This document shows, piece after piece, positions 819 to 58,221 of a DNA stretch of 64,000 bases. The notes under the pieces are model-generated. The model was not told the DNA's origin, ran no database searches, and worked only from the letters and a program-made list of their open reading frames with translations. Within the stretch, counting starts at the first letter, position 1. The number at the start of each line of letters is the position of its first letter. Source of the DNA: Pseudomonas akapageensis (lineage in GTDB: Bacteria; Pseudomonadota; Gammaproteobacteria; Pseudomonadales; Pseudomonadaceae); contig NZ_VXCP01000009.1 in the NCBI RefSeq assembly GCF_011355085.1, positions 23,848-87,847 of the forward strand, in the 5' to 3' direction. The translations under genes and the position numbers were made by a program.

Positions 819-2438
819 CTATGCCCGCCCTTCGCTCGGGTGGTTGAACGCCAGGAAATGCCGCACTACGGGCCTGCCTTCGCCCCGGTGGAAACGCAGC
901 ACTTCGGTCTGGATGTCGGCGTCCGCCCTGGAAACCCGGTGATGCTGACGCAAATGTTCGGCCCAGGACTCGACCTGGAACCATTCGAGCATCAGATCAG
1001 GTTCGGCCGCATCTTCGCTGATGGCCCAGGCGTAGGCGCCATCGCGCCGCCGCTCGGCCGACAGCCGGGCCAGCGCCTTCAAGAAGTCGGCGCGCTCCTG
1101 CGGCAAGACGCGGTATTCGATCTGGATCAGTACCGGTCCCCGATCATGCTCGACCGGTGCCGCCGTCAGCGGCTCGGGCCAGTGTCTGGAGGGCATCAGG
1201 TCGGCCTCACCCTTGGGCAGCTTGAGCCGATGGGCGACCAGGCCCACCACGACCAAGCCGGCGGCACCCGTCAGCAGCGTGAACGGCACGCCGATCAGTG
1301 TCGCCACCGCACCCCAGCTCAGGGTACCTAAGGTCATGGCACCGTTGAACACCGTGAGATACACCGCCAGCGAGCGGCCGCGCACCCAGTTGGGCAGGAT
1401 GGCCTGCGCCACGCCACTGAGGGTGGTCAGCGCAGTGATCCAGGCTGCGCCCAACGCCAGCAAGGCAGCCACCGCCGCCCACTGCGGCGGCGCGAACGAG
1501 AGGAAGGCCATGACCGCCGCCGTCACCAGCGCCGCCACTAACAGCAGGCCGTCGGCACTCAGGTGTGCACGCAGTTTCGGCATGATGATGGCTCCAGCGA
1601 TAGCGCCCAGGCCGACGGCGCCAAGCAGGATGCCGTAAAAGCCGGCGCCACCGCCGAGCAGGCTGCGCGCCACCAGCGGAAGCAGAGCCCAGACCGAACT
1701 GGCCAGGGCGAAGAATACGAAAGCGCGCACCAGGACGACATGCAACTCGCGGCTGGCGCGGGCATAACGTAGCCCCGCTCGGAATGCGCCAGGGAAACGC
1801 TCGGCCAGCACATCCTGCGCGGCCACTGGTCGCCGCCACCACAACAGTGCGCAGATGACGAAAACATAGGTGATGACATCTACCCCATAGGTGAACGCCG
1901 CCCCCAGGCTGGCGAGGATCAGCCCGCCCAGCGCCGGGCCGATGGCGCGGGCGATGTTGATCCCCAGCGAGTTGAGCGCCACCGCGTTCTTGAGGTCTTT
2001 CTTCTCCACCAGTTCGGGCACGATGGCCTGCCAGGTCGGCCCCATCAGCGCCGCGCCGATGCCGCCGAGGAGCGTCAGGGCCACCAGCGAGGTAACCGAC
2101 TGCAGACCGCCGAGTGACAGTAGCATCAGGCAAATGCTGACACTGGCCAGCAGGAACTGGATGACGATCAGGAGCTTGCGCCGGTCGAGGATATCGGACA
2201 GCACGCCGGCGGGAATCGCCAGCAGGAAAATCGGCAGTGTCGCGGCGGCCTGCACCAGTGCGACGGCCACTGGCGACGACGACAGGTCGGTCATGATCCA
2301 GGCGCTGGCGACATCGCGGATGAAGCTGCCGGTGTTGCCGATGATCGTCGCGACCCACAGGACTGCAAAAAACGTCTGCCGCAAAGGCGCGAAACTACCG
2401 GTAGACGCGGAAACGGATTGCGATGATTCCTTGCTCAT
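819..2438 (-). CDS. MFS transporter with C-terminal monooxygenase-like (ABM fold) domain
   Basis: The 539-aa protein begins with a polar leader and has about twelve hydrophobic helices up to about residue 415, with the DRR motif after an early helix (LSDILDRRK) as in MFS_3 exporters of the EntS type. After about residue 435 comes a soluble tail (IQIEYRVLP, LEWFQVESWAEHLRQH) that looks like the small ferredoxin-like ABM/YgiN fold. This fusion recurs in a subgroup of MFS proteins. I chose the ATG at 2438 because it overlaps the DoxX stop as ATGA and gives a normal MFS N-terminus; upstream in-frame codons only read through doxX in another frame. It is the last gene of the 5904-819 operon. It is likely an inner-membrane efflux protein, substrate unknown. 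Confidence 0.85.
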   Translation of the reverse strand: MSKESSQSVSASTGSFAPLRQTFFAVLWVATIIGNTGSFIRDVASAWIMTDLSSSPVAVALVQAAATLPIFLLAIPAGVLSDILDRRKLLIVIQFLLASVSICLMLLSLGGLQSVTSLVALTLLGGIGAALMGPTWQAIVPELVEKKDLKNAVALNSLGINIARAIGPALGGLILASLGAAFTYGVDVITYVFVICALLWWRRPVAAQDVLAERFPGAFRAGLRYARASRELHVVLVRAFVFFALASSVWALLPLVARSLLGGGAGFYGILLGAVGLGAIAGAIIMPKLRAHLSADGLLLVAALVTAAVMAFLSFAPPQWAAVAALLALGAAWITALTTLSGVAQAILPNWVRGRSLAVYLTVFNGAMTLGTLSWGAVATLIGVPFTLLTGAAGLVVVGLVAHRLKLPKGEADLMPSRHWPEPLTAAPVEHDRGPVLIQIEYRVLPQERADFLKALARLSAERRRDGAYAWAISEDAAEPDLMLEWFQVESWAEHLRQHHRVSRADADIQTEVLRFHRGEGRPVVRHFLAFNHPSEGRA

Positions 2439-7249: not shown

Positions 7250-8569
7250 TTAGTAGCGATACGTCGCCTGCACTGAAACTCCATTCGCACTATTTTCATA
7301 TTTGGCATTGTATTCCGGTTGCAGACCAGAGTTGTTCGCCTGATTGACCGAGACTTTGGAATCCCAGAGATAACCGTAAGCAAAGTCTATCGTCAGATCG
7401 GGATTCGGCGAAAAAGCGCCGCCCAAGGTCACGGCTTGGCGGTTACCAACCGGAACGCGCACACTGCGGTCGGCATTCCTGATTGGCGACGGATCATAGG
7501 CGTAGCCTGCACGCAGCAGCCATTGTTGGTTCAATTGATAGGATGCGCCAACGGCCGTGGCCCAGGTGTCGCGCCAGTTCATTTCTTCGATCACACTTCC
7601 CAGGCCAGCCGCCTGGCCTACGGGGGAAAGACCGCTGTTGACTACCTCGATCTTCTGGATTCGGCTCCAACGTTTCCAGGTGGTCCCCAGGTATCCCGTC
7701 CAGCGACTATTGAAATGATGGGTAATGGACGTGTCCACGGATTCGGGCATTGTGAGGTCTAGTTTGTTGTCATACTTTCCGTCCAGTGGAATAACGCTTG
7801 GGGAGCCAGAAACTTCAGTATGCCCTTCAAGTTCATAGTCTACCTTCGAGTGATAGTTGATCCCCCAACGGGTTGCCTCAGTAAAGTCAACCAGGATGCC
7901 GACGTTGTAGCCAAGTGCGGTGTCATCGCCTTTGATCGTGACCAGTGTGTCCTGGCCGTTGTTCAGGGCGCCGGTGGCCAGGTAATTCTGCAGCTTTGCA
8001 TCGAAATGGTTCAGGGTCGGTCCGCCACCAATGGACAAGTAATCATTGATCCGATAGGCGATGGTGGGCTGCAGGGTGATCTCCTTGGTCGAACTATAGG
8101 AACCATGGTAACGGCCCTGAAAAGTGCTCTCGTAGTCATTGATCAGACCACTCGGAACATAGAGGCCCAGGCCAATCGAAAAACGATCATCAAGCGGCGT
8201 CGACATATAGGCAAAGGGCACGACCCCCAACGGTACCGAGTCCCCCTTGTTCGTTCCTGGGGCACTGCTCTGCGCATCACTGATGTCGTCGCTCGCCGAG
8301 ACGACCGCGGCCCCGCCGGAAATCTCGCTGCGCTTCAATTTGGTCAAGCCTGCAGGGTTGCCAAAGATGGTGCTGGCATCCAGCGCGGAAGAAGATCTTC
8401 CGGCATAAGCAGTTCCCGCGCTGCTCGCACTTTGTTCGTTCAAGGCAATGCCATTGGCCCCCGCGCTTGTGGAAGCGCTGATTATTGCCGCGGCACCTGC
8501 GAATTTGATCCAGGAAGACACTTCTCGCACAGCTGAGTGGCACGGGGTTGCACGGTTGCTCGGTTTCAT
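7250..8569 (-). CDS. FadL/TodX-type outer-membrane transporter
   Basis: The 439-aa protein has a signal peptide (hydrophobic stretch around residues 22-36, cleavage probably near SAGANG). It is followed by the OMPP1/FadL/TodX N-terminal plug sequence GIALNEQSASSAGTAYAGRS, the NPAGLTKL motif and many alternating beta strands ending in an aromatic residue (VSVQATYRY). Such proteins let hydrophobic or aromatic compounds cross the outer membrane. A GAGGTG site precedes the ATG. It lies downstream of the acyl-CoA synthetase gene in the same direction, separated by a hairpin at 8668-8693, so it may be transcribed separately. The context suggests uptake of the island's aromatic or fatty substrate. 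Confidence 0.88.
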   Translation of the reverse strand: MKPSNRATPCHSAVREVSSWIKFAGAAAIISASTSAGANGIALNEQSASSAGTAYAGRSSSALDASTIFGNPAGLTKLKRSEISGGAAVVSASDDISDAQSSAPGTNKGDSVPLGVVPFAYMSTPLDDRFSIGLGLYVPSGLINDYESTFQGRYHGSYSSTKEITLQPTIAYRINDYLSIGGGPTLNHFDAKLQNYLATGALNNGQDTLVTIKGDDTALGYNVGILVDFTEATRWGINYHSKVDYELEGHTEVSGSPSVIPLDGKYDNKLDLTMPESVDTSITHHFNSRWTGYLGTTWKRWSRIQKIEVVNSGLSPVGQAAGLGSVIEEMNWRDTWATAVGASYQLNQQWLLRAGYAYDPSPIRNADRSVRVPVGNRQAVTLGGAFSPNPDLTIDFAYGYLWDSKVSVNQANNSGLQPEYNAKYENSANGVSVQATYRY

Positions 8570-8719: not shown

Positions 8720-10621
8720 TCATTTGAGCCACTCGACCTGAAAGCTGTAGCGCCCCAGCAGGGGAGCCAGGATTTCCTGGCTGGTTCCGGGCCTGATGCA
8801 GGCGACATGCCCACGGCGATTATCCTGCACGACCTCCACTGCAATATCCGCAAGCCCCAGACGGTCCACTTCCTGCTGAACAACTCTGGCAATTTCCCGC
8901 TGCTGCAAGGCGGGCTTGAATATCTTGCCCACGGCAGTCAGAGGCAGCGTTTCGAGGATTTCAATGCGCTTGGGAACCGCTGCCCGCTCGTTGATGTTGA
9001 GATGAGCGAAGGCTTCAAGTTCTTCGGCATTGCAGGTTTGTCCGGGGCGCAGTTGAACGTAGGCGACCGGCACCTCGCCCGAGTAGACGTCGGGGCTGCC
9101 GATTGCAGCGGCCAGGGCGACGGCGGGGTGCAACTGCAGAGCCTCTTCGATTTGCTTGGGATCGATGTTGTGGCCGCCGCGGATGATCAACTCCTTTTTG
9201 CGTCCGGTCAGCCAGAAATAACCCTGGGCATCCTGGCGACCCAAATCGCCCGTATTCAGCCAGCGCTGACCGTCGATCTCGATCCAGAGGTCCCGGTTAT
9301 GACTTTCCTCCAGATAGCCGGCGAAGAGGTTCGGACCACTGATCGTGATCAGGCCGGTCTCATCAACATTGGCGTCGCGCAGGTACGCTCCGCAATCATC
9401 GAGCAAGACCGCGCGCATATGCTGGTAGGCGATCCGTATCCCGATGGAGCCGATACGACGTTCGCCATGGGGCGGATTGACCGAGGAAACGCAGGCGCCC
9501 TCGGTAAGTCCGTAACCTTCAAGAATCTTCAGCCCGGTCTTCTGCTCGAACTCTCGGAAAAGCTCAGCCGGCATGGGGGCGGCGCCACACATGGCATAGC
9601 GAAGACTGGACAGGTCGCGACCCTGCCGGTCAGTTTGCAAAAGTGCCGCATACACAGTTGGTACGCCGGAAAAGAAGTTGATACCGAAGTGCTCGACCAT
9701 TTCCCAGAATCGTGTGATCACCCCCTCGCCACGATAACCATGAGGCGTCCCGAGGATCACATGGTCGCCTTGAGTCCAGGGCATCAGCCCGGTGACCAGT
9801 TGTCCATTGACATGAAATAGCGGCAGGCCACAAAAGATGACCTGGCCACTACGGCGTGGCTGCAGGTGAGCGGCCATGGCCCATGCATTGAAGACTTCCG
9901 AACCATGGGTACGCGCGGCGATCTTGGGGAGCCCGGTGGTGCCGCCGGTACAGATGTAGGAGGAACGCTCATCCTGGCGAATTTGCCGCCCGCTCTTCAG
10001 GTGCGTGTGTGGCTGAGCATTCATCAGCGATAGCAAATCGTGGATCGCGATACCGCTGTGCAAGTCTCGCTCCTTCTGTGCCACGGCTTTCATGGCCACA
10101 CGCACAGGTTCGGCGACATAGGGTTCCATGCTGACCCAGACGACATGCCTGACCGTGGGCAACTGATCCAGTTGCGAAGCCAGTTTGGGCCACAGATCGC
10201 TGCCCCCGCTCGGTGCGAGTGTCACCACCACGGATGCCTTTGCGGCATTCAGCAAGCCAGCGATCTGCTTGGCCTCGAGCAGAGGATTGATCGCCATGAC
10301 GATGCCCGCCGCTTCCCCACCCCAGATGGTGAAGTGGGTTTCCGGGAGGTTGGGCAGGATGAACGCAAGCACCTCGCCGGGTTTAATGCCCAGGTCATGG
10401 AAGGCATTTGCCGCGCGGGTGATATCAGCGAAGAGCTGGTAGTAGTTCCACTCGAAGGTGCGCGTGAAATCGGCGGCATCGGCAAAGAAGCTCAGTGCCG
10501 GTGCCTGGGGAGTGCGCTCGACGGCTTGTCGCAAAGCTGCGTAGGTACTGGGCGCCAGGCCACGCGCCGACAACGGGACTCGTTCGAGTTTTTCGATATC
10601 GTTCAGGGTTTGCACCGTCAT
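8720..10621 (-). CDS. Acyl-CoA synthetase (AMP-forming)
   Basis: The 633-aa protein has the adenylate-forming motifs in order: SSYICTGGTTGLPK (P-loop-like AMP motif), GYGLTEG (A5), NTGDLGR (A7), TGRKKELIIRGGHNIDP (A8 hinge) and a C-terminal TAVGKIFKPAL with the catalytic Lys. It forms an acyl- or aryl-CoA from a carboxylic acid, ATP and CoA in the cytoplasm. Start and stop overlap (TGATG) with the upstream FAH-family gene, so they are translationally coupled. Context suggests that it activates an acid from ring cleavage or a side chain. It could be named a long-chain or aromatic acid ligase, and sequence alone does not decide. Confidence 0.88.
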   Translation of the reverse strand: MTVQTLNDIEKLERVPLSARGLAPSTYAALRQAVERTPQAPALSFFADAADFTRTFEWNYYQLFADITRAANAFHDLGIKPGEVLAFILPNLPETHFTIWGGEAAGIVMAINPLLEAKQIAGLLNAAKASVVVTLAPSGGSDLWPKLASQLDQLPTVRHVVWVSMEPYVAEPVRVAMKAVAQKERDLHSGIAIHDLLSLMNAQPHTHLKSGRQIRQDERSSYICTGGTTGLPKIAARTHGSEVFNAWAMAAHLQPRRSGQVIFCGLPLFHVNGQLVTGLMPWTQGDHVILGTPHGYRGEGVITRFWEMVEHFGINFFSGVPTVYAALLQTDRQGRDLSSLRYAMCGAAPMPAELFREFEQKTGLKILEGYGLTEGACVSSVNPPHGERRIGSIGIRIAYQHMRAVLLDDCGAYLRDANVDETGLITISGPNLFAGYLEESHNRDLWIEIDGQRWLNTGDLGRQDAQGYFWLTGRKKELIIRGGHNIDPKQIEEALQLHPAVALAAAIGSPDVYSGEVPVAYVQLRPGQTCNAEELEAFAHLNINERAAVPKRIEILETLPLTAVGKIFKPALQQREIARVVQQEVDRLGLADIAVEVVQDNRRGHVACIRPGTSQEILAPLLGRYSFQVEWLK

Positions 10622-11742
10622 CAGGCTTCCCCCACGACTCGGTTGCGTTGCACGCCGAGGTCGATCACGCCATCGGCGCTGCGAATGCGCGCCTCGACCA
10701 CGTCACCTGGCTTGAGATACTGCGTCCGGCTTTCCTGCGCCTTGAGGAAAAGCTTCCACTTGGTGGCTTCCGGCATCAGGGCTGCAATGCGCTGTTTGGC
10801 GGGCGAGGGTATCGTCAGGGCACAACCTGCAGGAGTACCCGTGGCGATCAGATCGCCGGGTGCGAGATCCTGCAACGAGGAGAGTTCGGTCAGGGTTTCA
10901 GCTGGGCCGTAAACCAGGTTGGCCGTGCTGTCGTCCTGTCGCACCTGGTCGTTGACCGTCAGGCGCAGCTGCAGTGCTTTCAGGTAAGGCATGCTCTTGG
11001 CGTCCAGCAGGCAAAGGTAGGGGCCGACCGGGCCAAAGGTGCGGAAGCTCTTGCCCTTGTAGAACTGCATCTGGGGAATCTGAATGTCACGCGCCGAGTA
11101 GTCATTGACAATGACGACGCCTGCAATGAACTCATGCAAATTGGCGTCGGTGACGGCAACCGCGCCGGTGATCGCGCGTTTCATCACCAACCCCAGTTCA
11201 ATCTCGTAATCCAGGAAGCGCACGCTGCGCGGCTTGATCAGGTCGCTGTCGGCTGCCACCAGGCAACTCGTTGCCTTGGTAAAGATCATGTTGAAGTTCT
11301 TCGCGTCCGGGTCCATGCCTGACTCGATCATGTGCTGACGGTAATTGGCGCCCTGACAGACGAACTGCTGGTTACGGGTCACCGGCGACAGCAGTTTCAC
11401 TTCGCTCTCATTCAACTCCGTACCTGTCAATCGAGCGAGGTCGTCGATACTGTTCTGGCGAATGAAGTCACCGGTGGTTTCAAAAGCACCGGGGACAACC
11501 GTGATACGGCCTTGGCGCAGCACGCCCCAGTGGATACCGTTCTCGAATTCAAAGCGGACTACGTGTACAGCAGACATTGAAGGTACTCCTGGAGCGGCGT
11601 TTGTCCCGCGTTCGGTGGCGCGAGAACTTTGGTGTTGTTCTGAGAGGGGGCTGGCAACGCTGCAGATCAGCGAGCCGCCGATGATCAATGCGCCGGCTTT
11701 AAGCACATCCCGCCGGCCATGCCTGGTTGAATTGCTCGACAT
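10621..11742 (-). CDS. Fumarylacetoacetate hydrolase-family protein with Tat-like N-terminus
   Basis: The FAH catalytic domain occupies residues about 150-370, with metal-site motifs DYEIELGLV and NDYSARDIQIPQ and the region PGDLIATGTPAG. The family hydrolyses or decarboxylates 2-oxo acids from aromatic ring cleavage. Two starts are possible. The ATG at 11742 (373 aa), 10 bases after the dioxygenase stop, adds 55 residues that look like a twin-arginine signal (HGRRDVLKAGALIIGGSL). An internal ATG at 11577 (318 aa) has a better ribosome site (GGAG, 8 bases) and gives the usual family length. I keep the longer frame because the extension is too signal-like to ignore, but the shorter protein may be the real cytoplasmic enzyme. 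Confidence 0.8.
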   Translation of the reverse strand: MSSNSTRHGRRDVLKAGALIIGGSLICSVASPLSEQHQSSRATERGTNAAPGVPSMSAVHVVRFEFENGIHWGVLRQGRITVVPGAFETTGDFIRQNSIDDLARLTGTELNESEVKLLSPVTRNQQFVCQGANYRQHMIESGMDPDAKNFNMIFTKATSCLVAADSDLIKPRSVRFLDYEIELGLVMKRAITGAVAVTDANLHEFIAGVVIVNDYSARDIQIPQMQFYKGKSFRTFGPVGPYLCLLDAKSMPYLKALQLRLTVNDQVRQDDSTANLVYGPAETLTELSSLQDLAPGDLIATGTPAGCALTIPSPAKQRIAALMPEATKWKLFLKAQESRTQYLKPGDVVEARIRSADGVIDLGVQRNRVVGEA

Positions 11743-11752
11743 GCCAGCAGCG

Positions 11753-12844
11753 CTACCCGAACATCCGCATGAGTGTCATCAACTTGCGAATGGTAAGGTC
11801 CGGGCTGCGGCGCAGGTTGCGGATCAGTGCGCGCAGACTGGTCAGGCTCATCCTGGGTTTGGTAAAACTCCTGGGCATGCGCTGCCCCCACTGCGCCATG
11901 GCTTCGGGGCTCACGGGATGAATGCCGGTGGGCTGTACGGCCGTGAAGATATCGCCGTCGCAGTAGTGCTCGTGCTTGTCACCCCAAGGGTCTTGCCAGT
12001 AATCGAAGATCTGGCTGCCCAGAATGTGCCGGCCGATTCCCCATGAGTGCTGCCAACCCCGCTCCCGCAGGACGCGCTGCCCCATGCCCACCGCGTCTGC
12101 ATCGACAACCTCGTAGGCGCTATGGCTATAGGTCGCCATGAACCCTTGCGCTATCGCGAGCGTATGGTGATCCGCGGGAATTTCACCGAGGTCAAGGCGC
12201 ATGAAGGCGACGATGGGGGTGCCGTCCGGGAGTACCTGCACATCGCTTGGAATAAACCCGAAATGCTGGGTATACCAGGCGCAGGTCGCCTGATAGTCGG
12301 CCACTTCAATGACGACATGGCCAAGCCTGAGTACTTCAGGTGGAGCAATCGGCGGGCGCTGCGTGGCGTTGATGCGCGGTTGCTCCTGCGCCACATTCCA
12401 GAGAAGGGGGGCTCTGTGTGCCAGATTTTTACCTGGAGTCTGGTCGCAAACGGCTTCCACAATGAAACCGGAAGGGTCAGTCAGTCTGACGTAGTACCCG
12501 CTACCCGGATGTTCTGATTTCTCGACCGGTGACGCACCTGGAATTCGCGTCAGTTTTTCCAGATCCGAGAGAGACTGGACGGCCAGTCCGAATCCAATAA
12601 AACGCGCATGGTCCGCACGATGGACACGGTAACAGTAGGAAGTGGGCTCGGTGGCGCGTAGATAGAGCGTATCGGCGTCCTGTCGACTGACTGTCAGGCC
12701 GAAGTCGGTCAGGAAACGCGCCGCCTCGTTCAAGTCCGGCCTTTGAAAAATCAGGTGCGTCAGATCCTGGGCCTTCACCGTTGGCTGCGGATGCCGTGCA
12801 GGTTGTTGCGTTGCCAACTGGGGCATTTCATTTTTGCTGTTCAT
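11753..12844 (-). CDS. Extradiol-type (VOC) ring-cleavage dioxygenase
   Basis: The 363-aa protein has two vicinal-oxygen-chelate modules: residues about 25-135 (degenerate) and about 170-300 (catalytic). In the second, His176 (LGHVVIEV), His241 (YSHSAYEV) and Glu292 (HEHYCDGD) fit the 2-His-1-carboxylate iron site of type I extradiol dioxygenases. They cut the ring of a catechol or trihydroxybenzene next to the hydroxyls using O2. The ATG at 12844 is chosen over the in-frame codon at 12886. It is followed 10 bases later by the FAH-family gene, the classic meta-cleavage partner. The ring substrate is not known. Confidence 0.85.
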   Translation of the reverse strand: MNSKNEMPQLATQQPARHPQPTVKAQDLTHLIFQRPDLNEAARFLTDFGLTVSRQDADTLYLRATEPTSYCYRVHRADHARFIGFGLAVQSLSDLEKLTRIPGASPVEKSEHPGSGYYVRLTDPSGFIVEAVCDQTPGKNLAHRAPLLWNVAQEQPRINATQRPPIAPPEVLRLGHVVIEVADYQATCAWYTQHFGFIPSDVQVLPDGTPIVAFMRLDLGEIPADHHTLAIAQGFMATYSHSAYEVVDADAVGMGQRVLRERGWQHSWGIGRHILGSQIFDYWQDPWGDKHEHYCDGDIFTAVQPTGIHPVSPEAMAQWGQRMPRSFTKPRMSLTSLRALIRNLRRSPDLTIRKLMTLMRMFG

Positions 12845-12883
12845 TGTTCTTGTTTTCCGGGTTTTCAGGGTAAAGCGTCCCCG

Positions 12884-12906
12884 CACCCCTGAAAATGCCA
12901 GGGGTG
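12884..12906 (-). terminator. Hairpin between tetR and the dioxygenase gene
   Basis: CACCCCTG and CAGGGGTG form an 8-bp stem with a 7-base loop in the 88-base gap after the tetR stop. There is no T-run, so it may slow or protect transcripts rather than end them. Confidence 0.4.
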
Positions 12907-12932: not shown

Positions 12933-13547
12933 TCAGTCGATAGAGGGAAGTGCCGGCAACTCTGTGGTCGCCAAGGCACGAGCCTCCTCTTGAGGTACAC
13001 CCAATGCCCGGAGCACCAGCTCGGCTGTGTCAGAGCCTGATTCGCGCCATGTTTTATGTCCTTCCAGCACCAGGAAAATCGAGCCCAGGACGCTGCTCGA
13101 TATCAGCGTCAGGACCGAGAGCAATTGCTCCTGCGCAAAGGTGTACCGCCCACTGGAAAGTCCGCTCAGCAGATCCGTAGTCGCCTGGCTGGAAAACATT
13201 TCGCGCAACGAAGAATTGCTCATGGCGAATTTATGTATGAACGCCCCCCACTTGGAATCCTCGTGAGCCCGACGAATGAAGAATCGAATTCCATTGGCAA
13301 GGCGCTGAGCCGGATCGGAGAGGGAATCGAAGCTCTTGTTGACGCGCTCGTGCATCTCTCTGGCGAGATGGCTGGCGACCGTTTCGAACAGGCTTTCCAT
13401 GTTGTCGATGTTGCTATAGATCGTTCCGCGTGCCACGCCTGCCTCTTGCGCGAGGTCGAGGACGTTCACCTGCGAGGTGCCTTTTTCAGCGAACAGGCGA
13501 AAGGCGGCTTGATGTATGCGGCGCTGCGTCGGATTCAGGGATTCCAC
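12933..13547 (-). CDS. TetR-family transcriptional regulator
   Basis: The 204-aa protein has the N-terminal TetR helix-turn-helix (RRIHQAAFRLFAEKGTSQVNV then ARGTIYSNIDNMESLF) and a helical ligand-binding domain. The frame extends to an ATG at 13598, but that start lies inside a 16-bp operator-like palindrome. A GTG at 13547 with GGAG 9 bases before it is more credible and leaves the palindrome in the leader. It diverges from the old-yellow-enzyme gene, which carries an identical palindrome, so it probably represses both directions until an aromatic ligand or CoA ester binds. Confidence 0.85.
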   Translation of the reverse strand: MESLNPTQRRIHQAAFRLFAEKGTSQVNVLDLAQEAGVARGTIYSNIDNMESLFETVASHLAREMHERVNKSFDSLSDPAQRLANGIRFFIRRAHEDSKWGAFIHKFAMSNSSLREMFSSQATTDLLSGLSSGRYTFAQEQLLSVLTLISSSVLGSIFLVLEGHKTWRESGSDTAELVLRALGVPQEEARALATTELPALPSID

Positions 13548-13581
13548 GGTCTCTCTCTCCAGGATTACCTCATGGGTCAAT

Positions 13582-13597
13582 TGAACACGCGTGTTCA
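13582..13597. promoter_or_regulatory. TetR operator copy 1 (in front of tetR)
   Basis: The perfect 16-bp palindrome TGAACACGCGTGTTCA lies 35 bases before the chosen tetR start. On the minus strand it is preceded by TTGAC and AAA at nearly the same spacing as copy 2, so it probably overlaps the tetR promoter. Confidence 0.75.
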
Positions 13598-13735
13598 TTT
13601 GGCGTCAATAAGGTTTTTTGCATTAAAAACGCGCTTCACGGTAAAAGCCGGTCTATGACTCCCATGAAATCTAGCTGCTCGAGTGATGTGGCAAGGTCGA
13701 CGAGGGCTGTTCAGATTTCAACATATTGACTTAAA

Positions 13736-15160: not shown

Positions 15161-18160
15161 ATGAAAAAAATACTTCTAAAAACAATACTGTTCGCCTTGC
15201 CGAAGGTACTCGGCTTCACTGCCCGCAAACATCCGCAATTCCGCGCCCGGCTCAAGCAAAAGAATTGCACCGCTTATATCGGCCTACAGGACGGCAGCAT
15301 CGGCCGCTTCTTGCAGATCAGGGGCGGCAAGGTGTCGTCGCGCGTCGGCACAGCAGCGCAGGCCGATGTCAGCATTCTGTTCAAGGACCTGCCGACGGCG
15401 CTGAAATTCCTCATGCCCAATCCGGACATGAGCGAGATCGTCCACGCAGCCAAGAATTTCAAGGTCGTCGCCAGTGGCCCGGACCATCTGGTTGTGTGGT
15501 TCACGCAGACGCTCAGCCTCAGCCAGACGGTCGGCCTGGAGATGGGCCTGCCGATGCGCGACGGCACACGCCGCTACACCACCTGCACCAATGGCGGCCC
15601 GCTGTTCGTCTATGTCAAGAACGGGCGGATCCAGCGCGTCACGCCGCTCGAACTGGACGACAAGGATGCACCGAGCTGGGAACTGCAGGCGCGGGGCAAG
15701 ATCTTCCGGCCCAAACGCCGCGCGCTGGTGGCGCCGCACGCCCTGTCGCTGAAGTCTCTGGTCTACTCGGAAAAACGCATTCTCCAGCCGATGAAGCGGG
15801 TCGATTTCGACCCCGACGGTGAGCGTAATCCGCAGAACCGGGGCAAGTCGCCCTACGTGCCCATCAGCTGGGAAGAGGCGCTGACTATCGTCGCCAAGGA
15901 AATCAACCGGCAGAAGCGCGTTCACGGACCCGGCTCGATCACCTTTCCGATGTCGTCCCACCACCAGTGGGGCAATGTCGGCTATTACCTCAGTTCGCTG
16001 ACGCGTTTCGCCAACCTGATCGGCTTCACCCGTGTCGCTGCCAACCCGGACAGCTGGGAGGGCTGGTACTGGGGCGCCATGCACCATTTCGGCAATTCCA
16101 TGCGGATCGGCGTGCCGGCCGGCTATGGCGGTATCGAGGACTGCCTCAAGGAAGCTGAGATGATGGTCTTCTGGTCCTGTGATCCGGAGAGCACCAACGG
16201 CGCCTATGCCGGTTTCGAAGGAACAACCCGCCGCCTGTGGGCCAAGGAACTCGGCATCGAGTTCATCCATATCGATCCGCACAACAACCCGACGGCGCAG
16301 CTCCTCGGCGGGCGCTGGATTCCGATCCGGCCGCAGACCGACGCCGCTTTGGCGACCGCCATCATGTACGTATGGGCTGTTGAGGGCCTGTACGACAAGG
16401 ATTACGTCGCAAACCGCACGACCGGCTTCGAGGAGTGGAAAAGCTACCTGCTGGGCGAAACCGACGGCATCCCCAAGACCCCCGAGTGGCAGGAAGGCGA
16501 AACCGGCGTGCCGGCCAAGGACGTGCGCGCCCTGGCCCGCAAGTGGGGCAACCGGAAAGTCTATCTGGCGACCGGCATGACTGGGGCTGGCTTCGGCGGT
16601 GCCTGTCGCGGCGCGACCGGGCAGCAGTGGGCGCGCTGCATGATCATGATGATGGGTATGCAGGGTTGGGGAAAACCTGGCGTCAATTTCGGCTGCCTGC
16701 AGGTTGGTGCGCCGGTGGACCATCATTTCTACTTCCCCGGCTATGCCGACGGCGGGATATCCGGCGACCTGATGTGGACCGGCAACGCCGTGAACAACTA
16801 TCAGCGCATGCCCCACATCCTGACCATGAACCCGGTCAAGCAGATGGTGCCGCGCCAGCAGCTGCCCGACGCCATCATCGATGGCCACGCCACTGGCTAT
16901 CTGTGGGACGGCATGTCGCAGGAGGCGCAATTCGCGCCCTTCACCTATCCGATGCCGGGTTATTCGCCCATCCATATGATCTACCGTTACGGCGGCTCGT
17001 CCTTCAGCACGGTCACCCGCTCCGGGCGCTGGGTCGATGCCTACCGCCACGACAGCATCGAGTTCGTCGTGAACCAGTCGATCTGGATGGAGGGAGAGGC
17101 TCAGTTCGCCGACATCATCTTGCCGGCCTGTACTCAGCTAGAGCGCTGGGACATCGGCGAATGGTGCAATTCCGGCGGTTATGCCCACCATGGTTACACC
17201 CTGGTCAATCATCGCGTCATGACGCTGCAGCACAAGTGCATTGAACCGCTTGGCGAGTCTCGGTCGGACTACGACATCTTCGCGGCCATCCTCGAACGCC
17301 TGAGCTTGGGCGGCGTATTCACCGAGGGTTGCACCGAGCTCGACTGGGCCAAACGGGTCTTCGACTCATCCGACCTGCCGGACCATATTTCGTGGACCGA
17401 CTTCTGCCGCAAGGGCTATTACGTCGTCCCGCCGGAAAAGCCCGAACTGCGCCCACCGGTCGACATGCGCTGGTTCGCCGAAGGGCGACAGAAGGACGTG
17501 CCGGAGCCGCATCCGCTGCCCTCCCAGTGGTCGGAGGAATTCGGCAAGGGTTTGCAAACGCCTAGCGGTAAGCTGGAGTTCATTCCCGAAATCCTCAAGC
17601 GCCACACCAAGGACAATCCCGACCGACCGGCGCTCAACCGTTACATCCCCTCCTGGGAAGGATTGGGGACAATCCATCTGGTCGCCAAGTATCCGCTGCA
17701 GATGATTGCGACCCATTCCCGCTACAGCTTCCACACTTCGAGCGACGGCAAGAATAGCGTTACCAGTCGGGTGCAGGACCATCGTGCTCGCATTGCCGGT
17801 CACGATTTCTGGCTACTGCGCATCAGCCCTGCCGATGCGGCTACCCGCGGCATTTCGCAGCGCGACCTGGTCAAGGTTTACAACGACCGCGGAGTGGTGA
17901 TCTGCGCCGCCGACGTGTCGGCCCTGGTGGTGCCGGGGGTGGTGAAGTCCTACGAGGCGAGCGCGGAGTTCCAGATGGTGGAAGTGGCCGGCGAAACGGT
18001 GGAAATCGGCGGCTGCATGAATATCCTCACCCCGGATCGGTCGCAGACCCAGGGGACCAGCAGCATGAGTCCCAATTCATGCCTGGTCCAAATCGAAAAA
18101 TGGCAAGGCGCCGAGGCGTTCAAGTGCCTGCGCGCCGAGGCGGGAGCAGTACATGAGTAA
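15161..18160 (+). CDS. Molybdopterin transhydroxylase-like large subunit with N-terminal SCP2-like domain
   Basis: The 999-aa protein belongs to the DMSO-reductase family and closely resembles the alpha subunit of Pelobacter acidigallici pyrogallol-phloroglucinol transhydroxylase and Azoarcus resorcinol hydroxylase. Recognisable segments are SSHHQWGNVGYY, NPDSWEGWYWG, YFPGYADGGISGD, ILPACTQLERWDI and NILTPDR. Asp297, Ser298 (probable Mo ligand), Trp299, His267 and Tyr528 match the active-site residues I recall (174, 175, 176, 144, 404) at a constant offset of 123-124. That offset is an extra N-terminal domain: residues about 20-125 look like an SCP2 sterol/lipid-carrier fold (YIGLQDGSIGRFLQIRGGKV, ADVSILFKD). 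There is no N-terminal Fe-S cysteine motif, as in the known enzyme. No Tat signal is seen, so it is probably cytoplasmic. It overlaps the small-subunit gene by 8 bases. Confidence 0.88.
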   Translation: MKKILLKTILFALPKVLGFTARKHPQFRARLKQKNCTAYIGLQDGSIGRFLQIRGGKVSSRVGTAAQADVSILFKDLPTALKFLMPNPDMSEIVHAAKNFKVVASGPDHLVVWFTQTLSLSQTVGLEMGLPMRDGTRRYTTCTNGGPLFVYVKNGRIQRVTPLELDDKDAPSWELQARGKIFRPKRRALVAPHALSLKSLVYSEKRILQPMKRVDFDPDGERNPQNRGKSPYVPISWEEALTIVAKEINRQKRVHGPGSITFPMSSHHQWGNVGYYLSSLTRFANLIGFTRVAANPDSWEGWYWGAMHHFGNSMRIGVPAGYGGIEDCLKEAEMMVFWSCDPESTNGAYAGFEGTTRRLWAKELGIEFIHIDPHNNPTAQLLGGRWIPIRPQTDAALATAIMYVWAVEGLYDKDYVANRTTGFEEWKSYLLGETDGIPKTPEWQEGETGVPAKDVRALARKWGNRKVYLATGMTGAGFGGACRGATGQQWARCMIMMMGMQGWGKPGVNFGCLQVGAPVDHHFYFPGYADGGISGDLMWTGNAVNNYQRMPHILTMNPVKQMVPRQQLPDAIIDGHATGYLWDGMSQEAQFAPFTYPMPGYSPIHMIYRYGGSSFSTVTRSGRWVDAYRHDSIEFVVNQSIWMEGEAQFADIILPACTQLERWDIGEWCNSGGYAHHGYTLVNHRVMTLQHKCIEPLGESRSDYDIFAAILERLSLGGVFTEGCTELDWAKRVFDSSDLPDHISWTDFCRKGYYVVPPEKPELRPPVDMRWFAEGRQKDVPEPHPLPSQWSEEFGKGLQTPSGKLEFIPEILKRHTKDNPDRPALNRYIPSWEGLGTIHLVAKYPLQMIATHSRYSFHTSSDGKNSVTSRVQDHRARIAGHDFWLLRISPADAATRGISQRDLVKVYNDRGVVICAADVSALVVPGVVKSYEASAEFQMVEVAGETVEIGGCMNILTPDRSQTQGTSSMSPNSCLVQIEKWQGAEAFKCLRAEAGAVHE

Positions 18161-19013
18161 GTGGAATCTGATCATCAACGTGGGGCGTTGCGAGAATTGC
18201 TATAACTGCGTGCTCGCCGAGCAGGACGAGCATGTTGGCAACGACTATCCGGGCTACGCGGCGCCGGCTTCCCTCAACAGTGAGGCGCCAATCCGCATCC
18301 TGCGGCGGGTGCAAGGGGAGGCTCCGATGGTTGAGACCACCTATCTGCCGGTGATGTGCAACCACTGCGACGATGCGCCGTGCATGAAGGTCGGCGGCGA
18401 CGCGATCAAGAAGCGTGCCGATGGCATCGTCGTAATTGATCCGGTGAAGGCTAAAGGCCGCAAGGACATCGTTCGCTCCTGCCCATACAAGGCCATCGTC
18501 TGGAACGAGGAGCAGCAGCTTCCTCAGACCTGGATCTTCGACGCCCACCTGCTCGACGGCGGCTGGAAAGGCCCGCGCTGTCAGCAGGTCTGTCCGACGG
18601 ACGTGTTTGAAGCGGTGAAACTCGACGACAAGGCGATGCAGGCGAAGGCGTGCAAGGAAGGGTTGCGGGTGCTGCTACCCAAGTTGAACGCGAAGCCGAG
18701 GGTCTATTACCGGGGGCTGGAGCGTTGGGACACGTGCTTTATTGGCGGCAGCGTCAGCGCGAGCGTTGACGGCGTGGTCGATTGCATCGCCGGTGCCGAA
18801 ATCTCGCTCCTTCAGGGTGCCAAAGTCATCGCGGTAACGTACAGCGATGCCTTTGGTGACTTCCGCTTTGACGGCCTGGCCAAGAAAAGCGGCTGCTATC
18901 GCATCGAAGTCCGCCACGGCCTGGGCGTGGCGCAGCGCGACTGCGAGCTCGACGAAAGCATCTATCTCGCAGAGATCCAGCTCGTGACCAGCCAGCAGAA
19001 TTGCATTAGCTGA
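18153..19013 (+). CDS. Transhydroxylase-like small (iron-sulfur) subunit
   Basis: The 286-aa ferredoxin-type subunit pairs with the large subunit. Cysteines are C13, C16, C19, then C69, C72, C77, then C110, then C143 and C147. The C-terminal part after PRVYYRGLERW (from about residue 180) looks like the small beta-barrel domain found in the Pelobacter transhydroxylase beta subunit (VTYSDAFGDFRFDGL). The usual fourth Cys of the first motif is Glu23, and the CxxC before AHLL is Trp127/Asp130. Nine ferredoxin-region cysteines remain instead of twelve, enough for two [4Fe-4S] clusters. It presumably passes electrons to or from the Mo subunit. Whether it is electron-transferring or structural here is unknown. 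Confidence 0.87.
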   Translation: MSKWNLIINVGRCENCYNCVLAEQDEHVGNDYPGYAAPASLNSEAPIRILRRVQGEAPMVETTYLPVMCNHCDDAPCMKVGGDAIKKRADGIVVIDPVKAKGRKDIVRSCPYKAIVWNEEQQLPQTWIFDAHLLDGGWKGPRCQQVCPTDVFEAVKLDDKAMQAKACKEGLRVLLPKLNAKPRVYYRGLERWDTCFIGGSVSASVDGVVDCIAGAEISLLQGAKVIAVTYSDAFGDFRFDGLAKKSGCYRIEVRHGLGVAQRDCELDESIYLAEIQLVTSQQNCIS

Positions 19014-57267: not shown

Positions 57268-58221
57268 ATGAACACCCTCGCTACCATACCCAGCCCGGAT
57301 TCGGCCAACGCCGCCCGTTATGCTCAGCTTGTCAGATCCTCGAAGAAGGCGGAATGGCAGATCGATCGCGATCTGCTGCAGGACCGGCGTTTCGACTTCT
57401 CGCGTAAATTCTTGCCCGACGGCCTGTCGCAGATCGACCGCCTGACCTTTCTCGCCGCGGACGAGGCGCGTCTGCTCAGTCAGATTCAGGGCCGAACCTA
57501 TGCGTATATCTTTGGCCTCGTCGAGCGCTTTATCAGTGCCAAAATGCTCGATCAGGGTCGGGCCCATGTCTTTGACGATCAGCTCGCACTCGAAGCGCTG
57601 GTTCGCTTTTCCAACGAGGAGATCAAGCACCAGGAGCTGTTCGCGCGCATCGAGACGATGATTGGTGCGCAATTGCCAGCGGGATATCGTCAGGTTGCCG
57701 ACCCAAACGATGTGGCGCGTGCGGTACTTGCGGCCAGCACCTGGTCGGTGCTGGCGCTGACCTGTCATATCGAGTTGTTCGTTCAGGCGCACTACGCGCA
57801 AAGCATCGCCCCGCGCGAGGAGTTGTGCCCACTGTTCAAGGATGTCTTCAAATTTCACTGGAAGGATGAAAGCCGCCACGTCGTCCTCGATGAACTGGAG
57901 TGGAAGGCGGAACACGCGAAACTCTTGCCTGCCGAGCGCGACCAGGCCGTGAGCGATCTGATTGCGCTGGTGGCGGCCGTCGACGGGATCCTGCAGGCGC
58001 AAGCGGCAGCCGATGCCGACTACTTCATGCGAAATGTACCTCGATCATTCAGTGTCGATGAGACTGCGCAGATCAAAGCCTCCGTGCTGGGTGCCTACCG
58101 CTGGCAATACATTGTCTCGGGTGTGCAGCATCCACACTTTGGCCGGCTGCTTGCGCGCATGACGACACCCGAACAGATGGCCATGATTCAGACCGCATTG
58201 GCGCCAATCATGAGCCATTGA
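57268..58221 (+). CDS. Ferritin-fold diiron oxygenase-like protein
   Basis: The 317-aa helical protein has Glu/His patterns typical of carboxylate-bridged diiron sites: SNEEIKHQELFARIE, CHIELFVQAHY and KDESRHVVLDELEW. This looks like the ferritin-like superfamily with N-oxygenase or desaturase relatives (AurF-like). AGGAG precedes the ATG. It is followed by a MAPEG gene, and the divergent AraC gene suggests induced expression. The substrate is unknown. Confidence 0.72.
   Translation: MNTLATIPSPDSANAARYAQLVRSSKKAEWQIDRDLLQDRRFDFSRKFLPDGLSQIDRLTFLAADEARLLSQIQGRTYAYIFGLVERFISAKMLDQGRAHVFDDQLALEALVRFSNEEIKHQELFARIETMIGAQLPAGYRQVADPNDVARAVLAASTWSVLALTCHIELFVQAHYAQSIAPREELCPLFKDVFKFHWKDESRHVVLDELEWKAEHAKLLPAERDQAVSDLIALVAAVDGILQAQAAADADYFMRNVPRSFSVDETAQIKASVLGAYRWQYIVSGVQHPHFGRLLARMTTPEQMAMIQTALAPIMSH

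Follow-up and report, generated by a model that had tools for sequence, protein, structure and literature searches.

A 64,000-nucleotide stretch of the Pseudomonas akapageensis genome (contig NZ_VXCP01000009.1), referred to here as the window, encodes a molybdenum (Mo) enzyme whose catalytic region resembles that of the pyrogallol-phloroglucinol transhydroxylase (PGTH) of Pelobacter acidigallici and is preceded, in the same polypeptide, by a domain with a predicted SCP2 fold. The reading that we find most economical, and towards which we lean slightly, is that this fused enzyme is a hydroxylase or transhydroxylase of hydrophobic phenols that would act without O2 and would have been recruited into an aerobic meta-cleavage pathway. 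The large subunit has the following features, where dN/dS is the ratio of non-synonymous to synonymous substitution rates.

15161-18160, forward strand: large-subunit open reading frame (ORF) with an ATG start, 999 amino acids, a single protein in one open frame.
15161..15535, forward strand: predicted SCP2-fold domain, residues 1-125 of the large subunit (AlphaFold, Foldseek, VIA-align, homologue in the same genome, dN/dS).
15572..18112, forward strand: PGTH-like molybdenum catalytic region, residues 138-984 (4v4c_A match, Pfam, full-length model).
15986..15988, forward strand: Tyr276 codon, which replaces PGTH Arg153 (alignment of fused and unfused enzymes).
16052..16054, forward strand: Ser298 codon, presumed Mo ligand equivalent to PGTH Ser175 (alignment; Ser in 86 of 86 fused rows).

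The best match of the large subunit among PDB sequences is the PGTH large subunit, 4v4c_A (E 1.6e-275, query residues 138-984 on chain residues 6-870), with 50% identity in the alignment. The same chain is the top structural match of the full-length AlphaFold model (Foldseek E 7.8e-91, TM-score 0.90 by target), which has a pLDDT of 79.4 with several active-site loops below 50. A preliminary description had taken the protein for a PGTH-type alpha subunit, and these comparisons bear it out. Pfam places AhtL-like_1st (PF21423, a family named for PGTH) at residues 146-200 (E 2.8e-23), Molybdopterin (PF00384) at 206-713 and Molydop_binding (PF01568) at 881-966. The active-site residues singled out beforehand, His267, Asp297, Ser298, Trp299 and Tyr528, all align as claimed with PGTH H144, D174, S175, W176 and Y404 at an offset of 123-124. 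An N-terminal extension is present too, but it measures about 132 residues rather than the 123 first estimated (query residue 138 against chain residue 6), the offset dropping to 123-124 further along because of gaps in the alignment. No signal peptide was seen on the product of the gene pair at 15161-19013, which is therefore read as cytoplasmic.

The extension had been proposed to be an SCP2 lipid-carrier domain. Residues 1-130 of the window's protein gave no Pfam match at E ≤ 1, SCP2 included; we assign SCP2 nevertheless, on account of the N-termini of relatives, a homologue in the same genome and fold comparison. Among 56 aligned fused N-termini, SCP2 was the commonest Pfam match (11 at E ≤ 1, the best at 0.0016); the alkylsulfatase C-terminal family was matched by two and every other family by at most one. 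An unfused ORF of 124 amino acids elsewhere in the genome (G000:C13) matches residues 7-115 (E 4.1e-7) and clears the PF02036 gathering cut-off (22.0 against 21.3 bits). A profile of the 56 N-termini had a single match among PDB sequences, 2lnm (TIC 40), at E 0.41; SCP2 structures are beyond the reach of sequence alone here, and fold comparison reaches them. The AlphaFold model of residues 1-134, made from an alignment of 55 rows, has a pLDDT of 83.4 and a pTM of 0.74. Its top Foldseek match is the UbiJ-SCP2 domain of ubiquinone synthesis (6h6o, E 2.9e-5), and its top VIA-align match is the sterol carrier protein 8af3 (Z 11.4, root-mean-square deviation 2.9 over 112 residues), with the SCP-2-like domain of human MFE-2 (1ikt) at Z 11.2 and the UbiJ rows at Z 9.0, below other sterol carriers. 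The first row outside sterol carrier, UbiJ and alkylsulfatase-type proteins comes at Z 7.4, and no molybdenum enzyme appears among the 50 structure matches listed by Foldseek or the 50 listed by VIA-align. In all six pairwise comparisons, dN/dS was 0.13-0.17 over residues 1-125 and 0.07-0.09 in the catalytic part; the domain is translated and constrained, though evolving faster than the catalytic part. The free-standing 124-residue SCP2 protein of this genome, which resembles the fused domain, is encoded at 1492-1866 (+) of locus L003, beside an ORF that we take to be reductase-like.

The preliminary description knew of no described enzyme with this architecture, which is nevertheless not rare. 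When one genome of each GTDB species was scanned with patterns in the catalytic part, at least 580 relatives came up, of which the best 80 loci were kept, and all 80 match from query residues 1 to 9, that is, with the N-terminal domain present (the matches of L043 and L056 are incomplete, ending at query residues 852 and 775). Ranking by a fused query favours fused enzymes, and unfused enzymes do exist. A chance ORF or a wrong start was considered and ruled out, the N-terminal domain being in frame, present in all 80 best-ranked loci and under purifying selection. Hosts among these loci include Pseudomonas, Crenobacter, Paraburkholderia, Burkholderia, Caballeronia, Rhizobium, Ensifer, Mesorhizobium, Hydrogenophaga, Novosphingobium, Sedimenticola, Desulfobacula and deltaproteobacterial metagenome-assembled genomes (MAGs). 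Among the matches listed, 8 of 20 plasmid records cover at least 98% of the query, and in the three plasmid records inspected the large subunit is labelled only as a molybdopterin-dependent oxidoreductase. Given that the window's protein is 79-95% identical to copies in Pseudomonas, Crenobacter, Burkholderiaceae and Rhizobium/Ensifer, some of them plasmid-borne, sequence comparison suggests horizontal transfer of the fused enzyme.

The distribution is patchy, as genome surveys (samples, not exhaustive counts) show at several ranks. Full-length fused copies occur in 5 of 198 sampled genomes of the window's family, its own included, with three more giving only weak matches (29-33% identity), and in 2 of 369 genomes of its class, again with its own. 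The order of the Ramlibacter genome of L051 (G579) gave 3 of 300, centre included, all fused; around the other two matches of that order, L124 and L125, no sign of a resorcinol cluster was seen by eye among the neighbours in greedy ORF maps containing shadow ORFs. For the phylum of the Desulfobacula genome of L096 (G580), 9 of 297 sampled genomes were positive, centre included: five carry a fused copy, six an unfused copy (46-52% identity) and two both. In 398 sampled genomes of the window's phylum, PF21423 was above cut-off only in the window's own genome, with one further sub-threshold match, and it was found in none of 14 control genomes. In two genomes of the Desulfobacula phylum sample, fused and unfused enzymes lie about 10-12 kb apart on one contig, L126/L127 (G580:C259) and L128/L129 (G879:C85), pairs that perhaps carry out two successive hydroxyl transfers.

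For the catalytic region, a maximum-likelihood tree with 60 rows and 853 columns was built from 49 fused enzymes, namely the window's and 48 loci hand-picked for diversity, nine unfused enzymes including PGTH, and two outgroup rows, by a quick search under LG+G4 with support from the Shimodaira-Hasegawa-like approximate likelihood ratio test (SH-aLRT) only. The fused enzymes, all 49 of them, group in a single clade with an SH-aLRT of 100; its sister is PGTH together with the unfused L128, and the remaining unfused rows fall outside. A single clade of unfused rows was not rejected by the approximately unbiased test (p-AU 0.097); only the fused clade is well supported.

The fused clade also differs in residues of the catalytic subunit. 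Where PGTH has Arg153, Tyr stands in 74 of the 86 fused rows, Trp in 11 and His in one, whereas the nine distinct unfused rows compared all have Arg or Lys; both counts come from alignments whose fused rows include near-identical or repeated places, and the pocket comparison was made without the unfused places G585:C310, C22 and C66, G583:C40 and G580:C293. In the window, the PGTH set Arg153, Trp354 and Phe468, which we take to line the pocket, has become Tyr276, Phe478 and Trp582. On the contig carrying both forms in G879, the unfused enzyme (L128) has the PGTH residues at all 11 positions compared, and its fused companion has Trp at 153. The position of PGTH Asp174 is occupied by Ile in 12 of the 86 fused rows (L015, L070, L071, L073, L075, L076, L080, L082, L086, L089, L091 and L094) and by Gln in one. 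Several of the Ile loci have short-chain dehydrogenase genes and none has a two-domain VOC gene at E < 1e-60; the substitution together with these neighbours suggests that the subgroup may have another reaction or substrate.

The second subunit carries the other change that sets the lineage apart.

18153..19013, forward strand: small Fe-S subunit, homologue of the PGTH small subunit (4v4c_B, E 1e-57; Fer4_11), whose start overlaps the large-subunit stop.
18531..18542, forward strand: W127-x-x-D130, which replaces PGTH C126-x-x-C129 (cysteine alignment).

We presume, from ferredoxin-type motifs, that the 12 cysteines of the PGTH small subunit serve three [4Fe-4S] clusters. In the window's small subunit C23 has become Glu (E23), C126 Trp and C129 Asp, which removes three of the four presumed ligands of one cluster, and the other two ligand sets are intact. 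The same pattern holds across 122 aligned small subunits, a number that includes repeated places and two extra outgroup copies and is counted without the loci lacking a small subunit at E 1e-60 (among the tree rows these are L060, L070 and L107, of which L070 shows gaps at the ligand positions). Set 13/16/19/149 is intact in 119 and set 68/71/76/109 in all 122; set 23/126/129/145 is intact in only 31, and in the remaining 91, positions 126 and 129 always hold Trp and Asp, with Cys23 kept in four of these subunits and Cys145 in 75. Mapped on the tree, the change is one event (38 rows with Trp/Asp, 19 with both cysteines, three without data). The cysteines persist in eight of the fused rows (Desulfobacula, deltaproteobacterial MAGs and members of the Desulfobacula phylum), so the sequences place the fusion before the cluster change. 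We read the WxxD form as a probable defined, fixed two-cluster variant of the PGTH-type small subunit.

Electrons in the DMSO reductase superfamily generally exit through the small subunit. The loss of one ligand set weakly disfavours a need for full electron export; it suggests that electrons need not leave through a complete PGTH-type chain, and on this ground hydroxyl transfer would fit better than net oxidation. The lost set also bears on a different role for the SCP2 domain, in which it would bind a lipid quinone and serve net hydroxylation as a shuttle for the electron acceptor. In ubiquinone synthesis, SCP2 proteins presumably bind precursors of the quinone, and it is UbiJ-SCP2 that heads the Foldseek matches; however, the ligand cannot be read from a shared fold, UbiJ at Z 9.0 ranks below the sterol carrier at 11.4, and in this lineage one ligand set is gone from the very subunit through which electrons would leave. 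We consider a quinone shuttle improbable.

The genes around the Mo subunits point to the pathway in which the enzyme may work.

11753..12886, reverse strand: two-domain VOC protein, presumed extradiol dioxygenase (Glyoxalase/dioxygenase Pfam; H190, H255, E306).
10621..11742, reverse strand: FAH-family hydrolase/isomerase (PF01557, E 1.1e-47; family in 46 of 80 related loci).
8720..10621, reverse strand: acyl-CoA ligase (NF005714 acyl-CoA synthetase, 901 bits against a cut-off of 632; 32 of 80 related loci).
7250..8569, reverse strand: FadL-type outer-membrane transporter (NF007988 FadL, E 7.3e-45, below the model cut-off).
12933..13598, reverse strand: TetR-type regulator between two divergent gene groups (PF00440, PF21306).

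At E < 1e-60 to profiles built from the 80 best-ranked loci, these contain the small subunit in 76 cases, FAH in 46, the two-domain VOC protein in 38 and the acyl-CoA ligase in 32; VOC and FAH occur together in 36 and all three of VOC, FAH and ligase in 25. The order VOC, FAH, large and small Mo subunits on one strand is found in L046 and L055, and Mo large subunit, small subunit, VOC, FAH in L061 (Pseudomaricurvus alkylphenolicus). Ligase, FAH, VOC and the Mo subunits are the recurring module. A TetR-type match is present in 24 of 59 loci, only three of them at 40% identity or more, and all three plasmid relatives have an annotated gene for outer-membrane transport or of the OmpW type close to the Mo genes. 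The OYE, cupin, CaiB, ECH, AtuA and ACAD genes of the window's island, also considered as one pathway with the Mo enzyme, were rejected as conserved context, with 0 to 4 of 59 loci each. The VOC ORF is given with a GTG start, and its true start may lie downstream; its matches to the HpaD and catechol 2,3-dioxygenase NCBIfam models are both under cut-off. H190, H255 and E306, kept in 34 of 34 aligned proteins, would make up a 2-His-1-Glu iron site, the motif-based assignment as iron ligands being our assumption, and because of this conservation the protein should be an active O2-dependent ring-cleaving enzyme. An extradiol-type dioxygenase is a conserved neighbour in close relatives, in line with the aerobic-type setting originally described.

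The FAH hydrolases of the window (10621-11742, -) and of L018 (5404-6525, -) begin with a twin-arginine-like signal (GRRDVLKAGA...), which is odd for an intracellular ring-fission enzyme; they may be exported, or their true start may lie downstream. L017, L021, L022, L023, L028, L032, L041 and L047, from Rhizobium, Ensifer and Mesorhizobium, have the ligase, FAH and a single-domain VOC gene and no two-domain VOC gene, L017 with two single-domain VOC genes side by side. An AurF-like (p-aminobenzoate N-oxygenase) protein is encoded further along the window at 57268-58221 (+), with 30.8 bits against a cut-off of 29.6.

The dioxygenase also speaks to the direction of the reaction. Run reductively, the enzyme would be a phenol dehydroxylase, and dehydroxylation of catechols is within the reach of Mo enzymes of this superfamily (PMC7028382); according to the same paper, however, catechol dehydroxylases form a branch of their own, with acetylene hydratase as a relative. 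A linked dioxygenase of an O2-dependent type fits the supply of a diol and not its removal, and we regard the reductive direction as very improbable.

Under the reading that we favour, FadL would import a phenol that bears a greasy side chain, such as a 5-alkylresorcinol. The SCP2 domain would grip the side chain and bring the ring of the phenol up to the Mo centre; there an aromatic residue has taken the place of a cationic one, a substitution seen in the alignment whose role is presumed. By homology with PGTH, the Ser-ligated Mo centre would add a hydroxyl without O2 and so give a ring with neighbouring hydroxyls; the linked extradiol-type dioxygenase, with its conserved residues, would open that ring next with O2, the FAH-family hydrolase would cut the cleavage product and free a side-chain acid, and the acyl-CoA ligase would activate this acid for beta-oxidation. 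That the SCP2 domain delivers a hydrophobic phenol, perhaps an alkylresorcinol, is what we infer, and two things lend this indirect support, namely the change of Arg or Lys to an aromatic residue and the presence of genes for an acyl-CoA ligase and FadL; alkylresorcinols are suggested because FadL- and ligase-type neighbours fit a long side chain. The fuller version of this route is more doubtful: that the SCP2 domain hands alkylresorcinol-like lipids to Mo for an O2-free hydroxyl transfer, that an Fe-S cluster was given up as no electrons leave, that an O2-dependent dioxygenase opens the ring, and that the whole spread horizontally among soil and root bacteria. Taken together, we hold it possible and somewhat unlikely.

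A nearer competitor to hydrophobic-phenol transhydroxylation, which we also think unlikely but deserving of weight, is a resorcinol hydroxylase of the RhL type: a net two-electron hydroxylation of a small dihydroxybenzene, with electrons passing through the remaining Fe-S clusters and the SCP2 domain as an appendage that lends structure or docks to the membrane. In its favour, PMC10100899 places RhL in the same group of the superfamily, as a cytoplasmic hydroxylase with a Ser ligand, and two of the three cluster sets are intact in 119 and 122 of 122 rows. It does not predict, however, the broken third set, the aromatic residue at 153 or the FadL and acyl-CoA ligase neighbours.

Several observations weigh against hydrophobic-phenol transhydroxylation. 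Two of the three ligand sets are retained, and electron transfer is still possible; residues 1-130 escape Pfam; the lining of the PGTH pocket by residue 153 is presumed; and with active-site loops below a pLDDT of 50, pocket geometry is not readable in the full-length model. Both the substrate and the activity of the fused enzyme are inferred. A homologue of the window's FadL is found in only three of 59 loci, and seven genome loci of Rhizobium, Ensifer and Mesorhizobium have the ligase and FAH and no two-domain VOC gene. Among 56 loci of at least 22 kb, 17 have neither the two-domain VOC nor the FAH gene; in some of them a VOC protein of a single domain is encoded, and Pfam finds such a protein in the four more distant fused loci L065, L069, L087 and L090 and in the Rhizobium locus L021. 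The last point concerns three early-branching deltaproteobacterial MAG loci, L077, L078 and L084 (L077 apparently being the 23,387-base contig of L128/L129), where the fused enzyme stands in phloroglucinol-type clusters; the architecture is not confined to aerobic settings. Its neighbours there are a short-chain dehydrogenase, a BKACE enzyme (400.7 bits against the NCBIfam 3,5-dioxohexanoate cleavage model, just below its cut-off of 430 bits), a 3-hydroxyacyl-CoA-type dehydrogenase and a cyclase-like gene, the cyclase label being taken from L127 (PF04199), as the tested ORF of L128 had no Pfam match at 1e-5. These gene sets fit the anaerobic phloroglucinol pathway of reductase, cyclohydrolase, dehydrogenase and triacetate lyase outlined in PMC10470551. 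Small polyphenols would be expected as substrates in such a setting, which suggests that at least some fused enzymes act on them.

Should hydrophobic-phenol transhydroxylation prove right, a phenol hydroxylase of the DMSO reductase superfamily would feed O2-dependent ring cleavage, a lipid carrier would be built into a molybdenum enzyme, and phenolic lipids would have a hybrid anaerobic/aerobic route. It would then suggest how soil and root bacteria, with Pseudomonas, Paraburkholderia, Rhizobium and Ensifer among the matches, might break down phenolic lipids. The natural variants, namely the change at 153, the broken cluster set and the Asp-to-Ile subgroup, offer a handle on the role of the Fe-S clusters of transhydroxylases. 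In the text searched, where most subscription papers are missing, the architecture was not described; an RhL with the same N-terminus would mean that it already exists inside a studied enzyme, even if undescribed.

Set beside known systems, the window's enzyme is a variant within the PGTH-like branch of the DMSO reductase superfamily and, by the features tested, no PGTH orthologue. The two share the catalytic subunit at 50% identity, the small subunit and the conserved Ser, Asp, Trp, His and Tyr, whereas PGTH lacks the SCP2 domain, carries Arg153 in the position of the Tyr, Trp or His of fused enzymes, and keeps all 12 presumed cluster cysteines. RhLS of Azoarcus anaerobius, compared by description only, is likewise a Ser-coordinated cytoplasmic hydroxylase of the superfamily, according to PMC10100899. 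The alkylsulfatases SdsA1 and Pisa1 and MFE-2 also carry an SCP2-type domain on a catalytic protein, but their catalytic folds are others. A parallel in pathway logic is HcdABC of Pseudomonas mandelii 7HK4, which, according to PMC6222606, degrades 3-(2,4-dihydroxyphenyl)propionate by ring hydroxylation, extradiol cleavage of a trihydroxyphenyl compound and hydrolysis; there the first step belongs to an O2-dependent flavin hydroxylase, whereas in the window the corresponding hydroxylase is a Mo enzyme.

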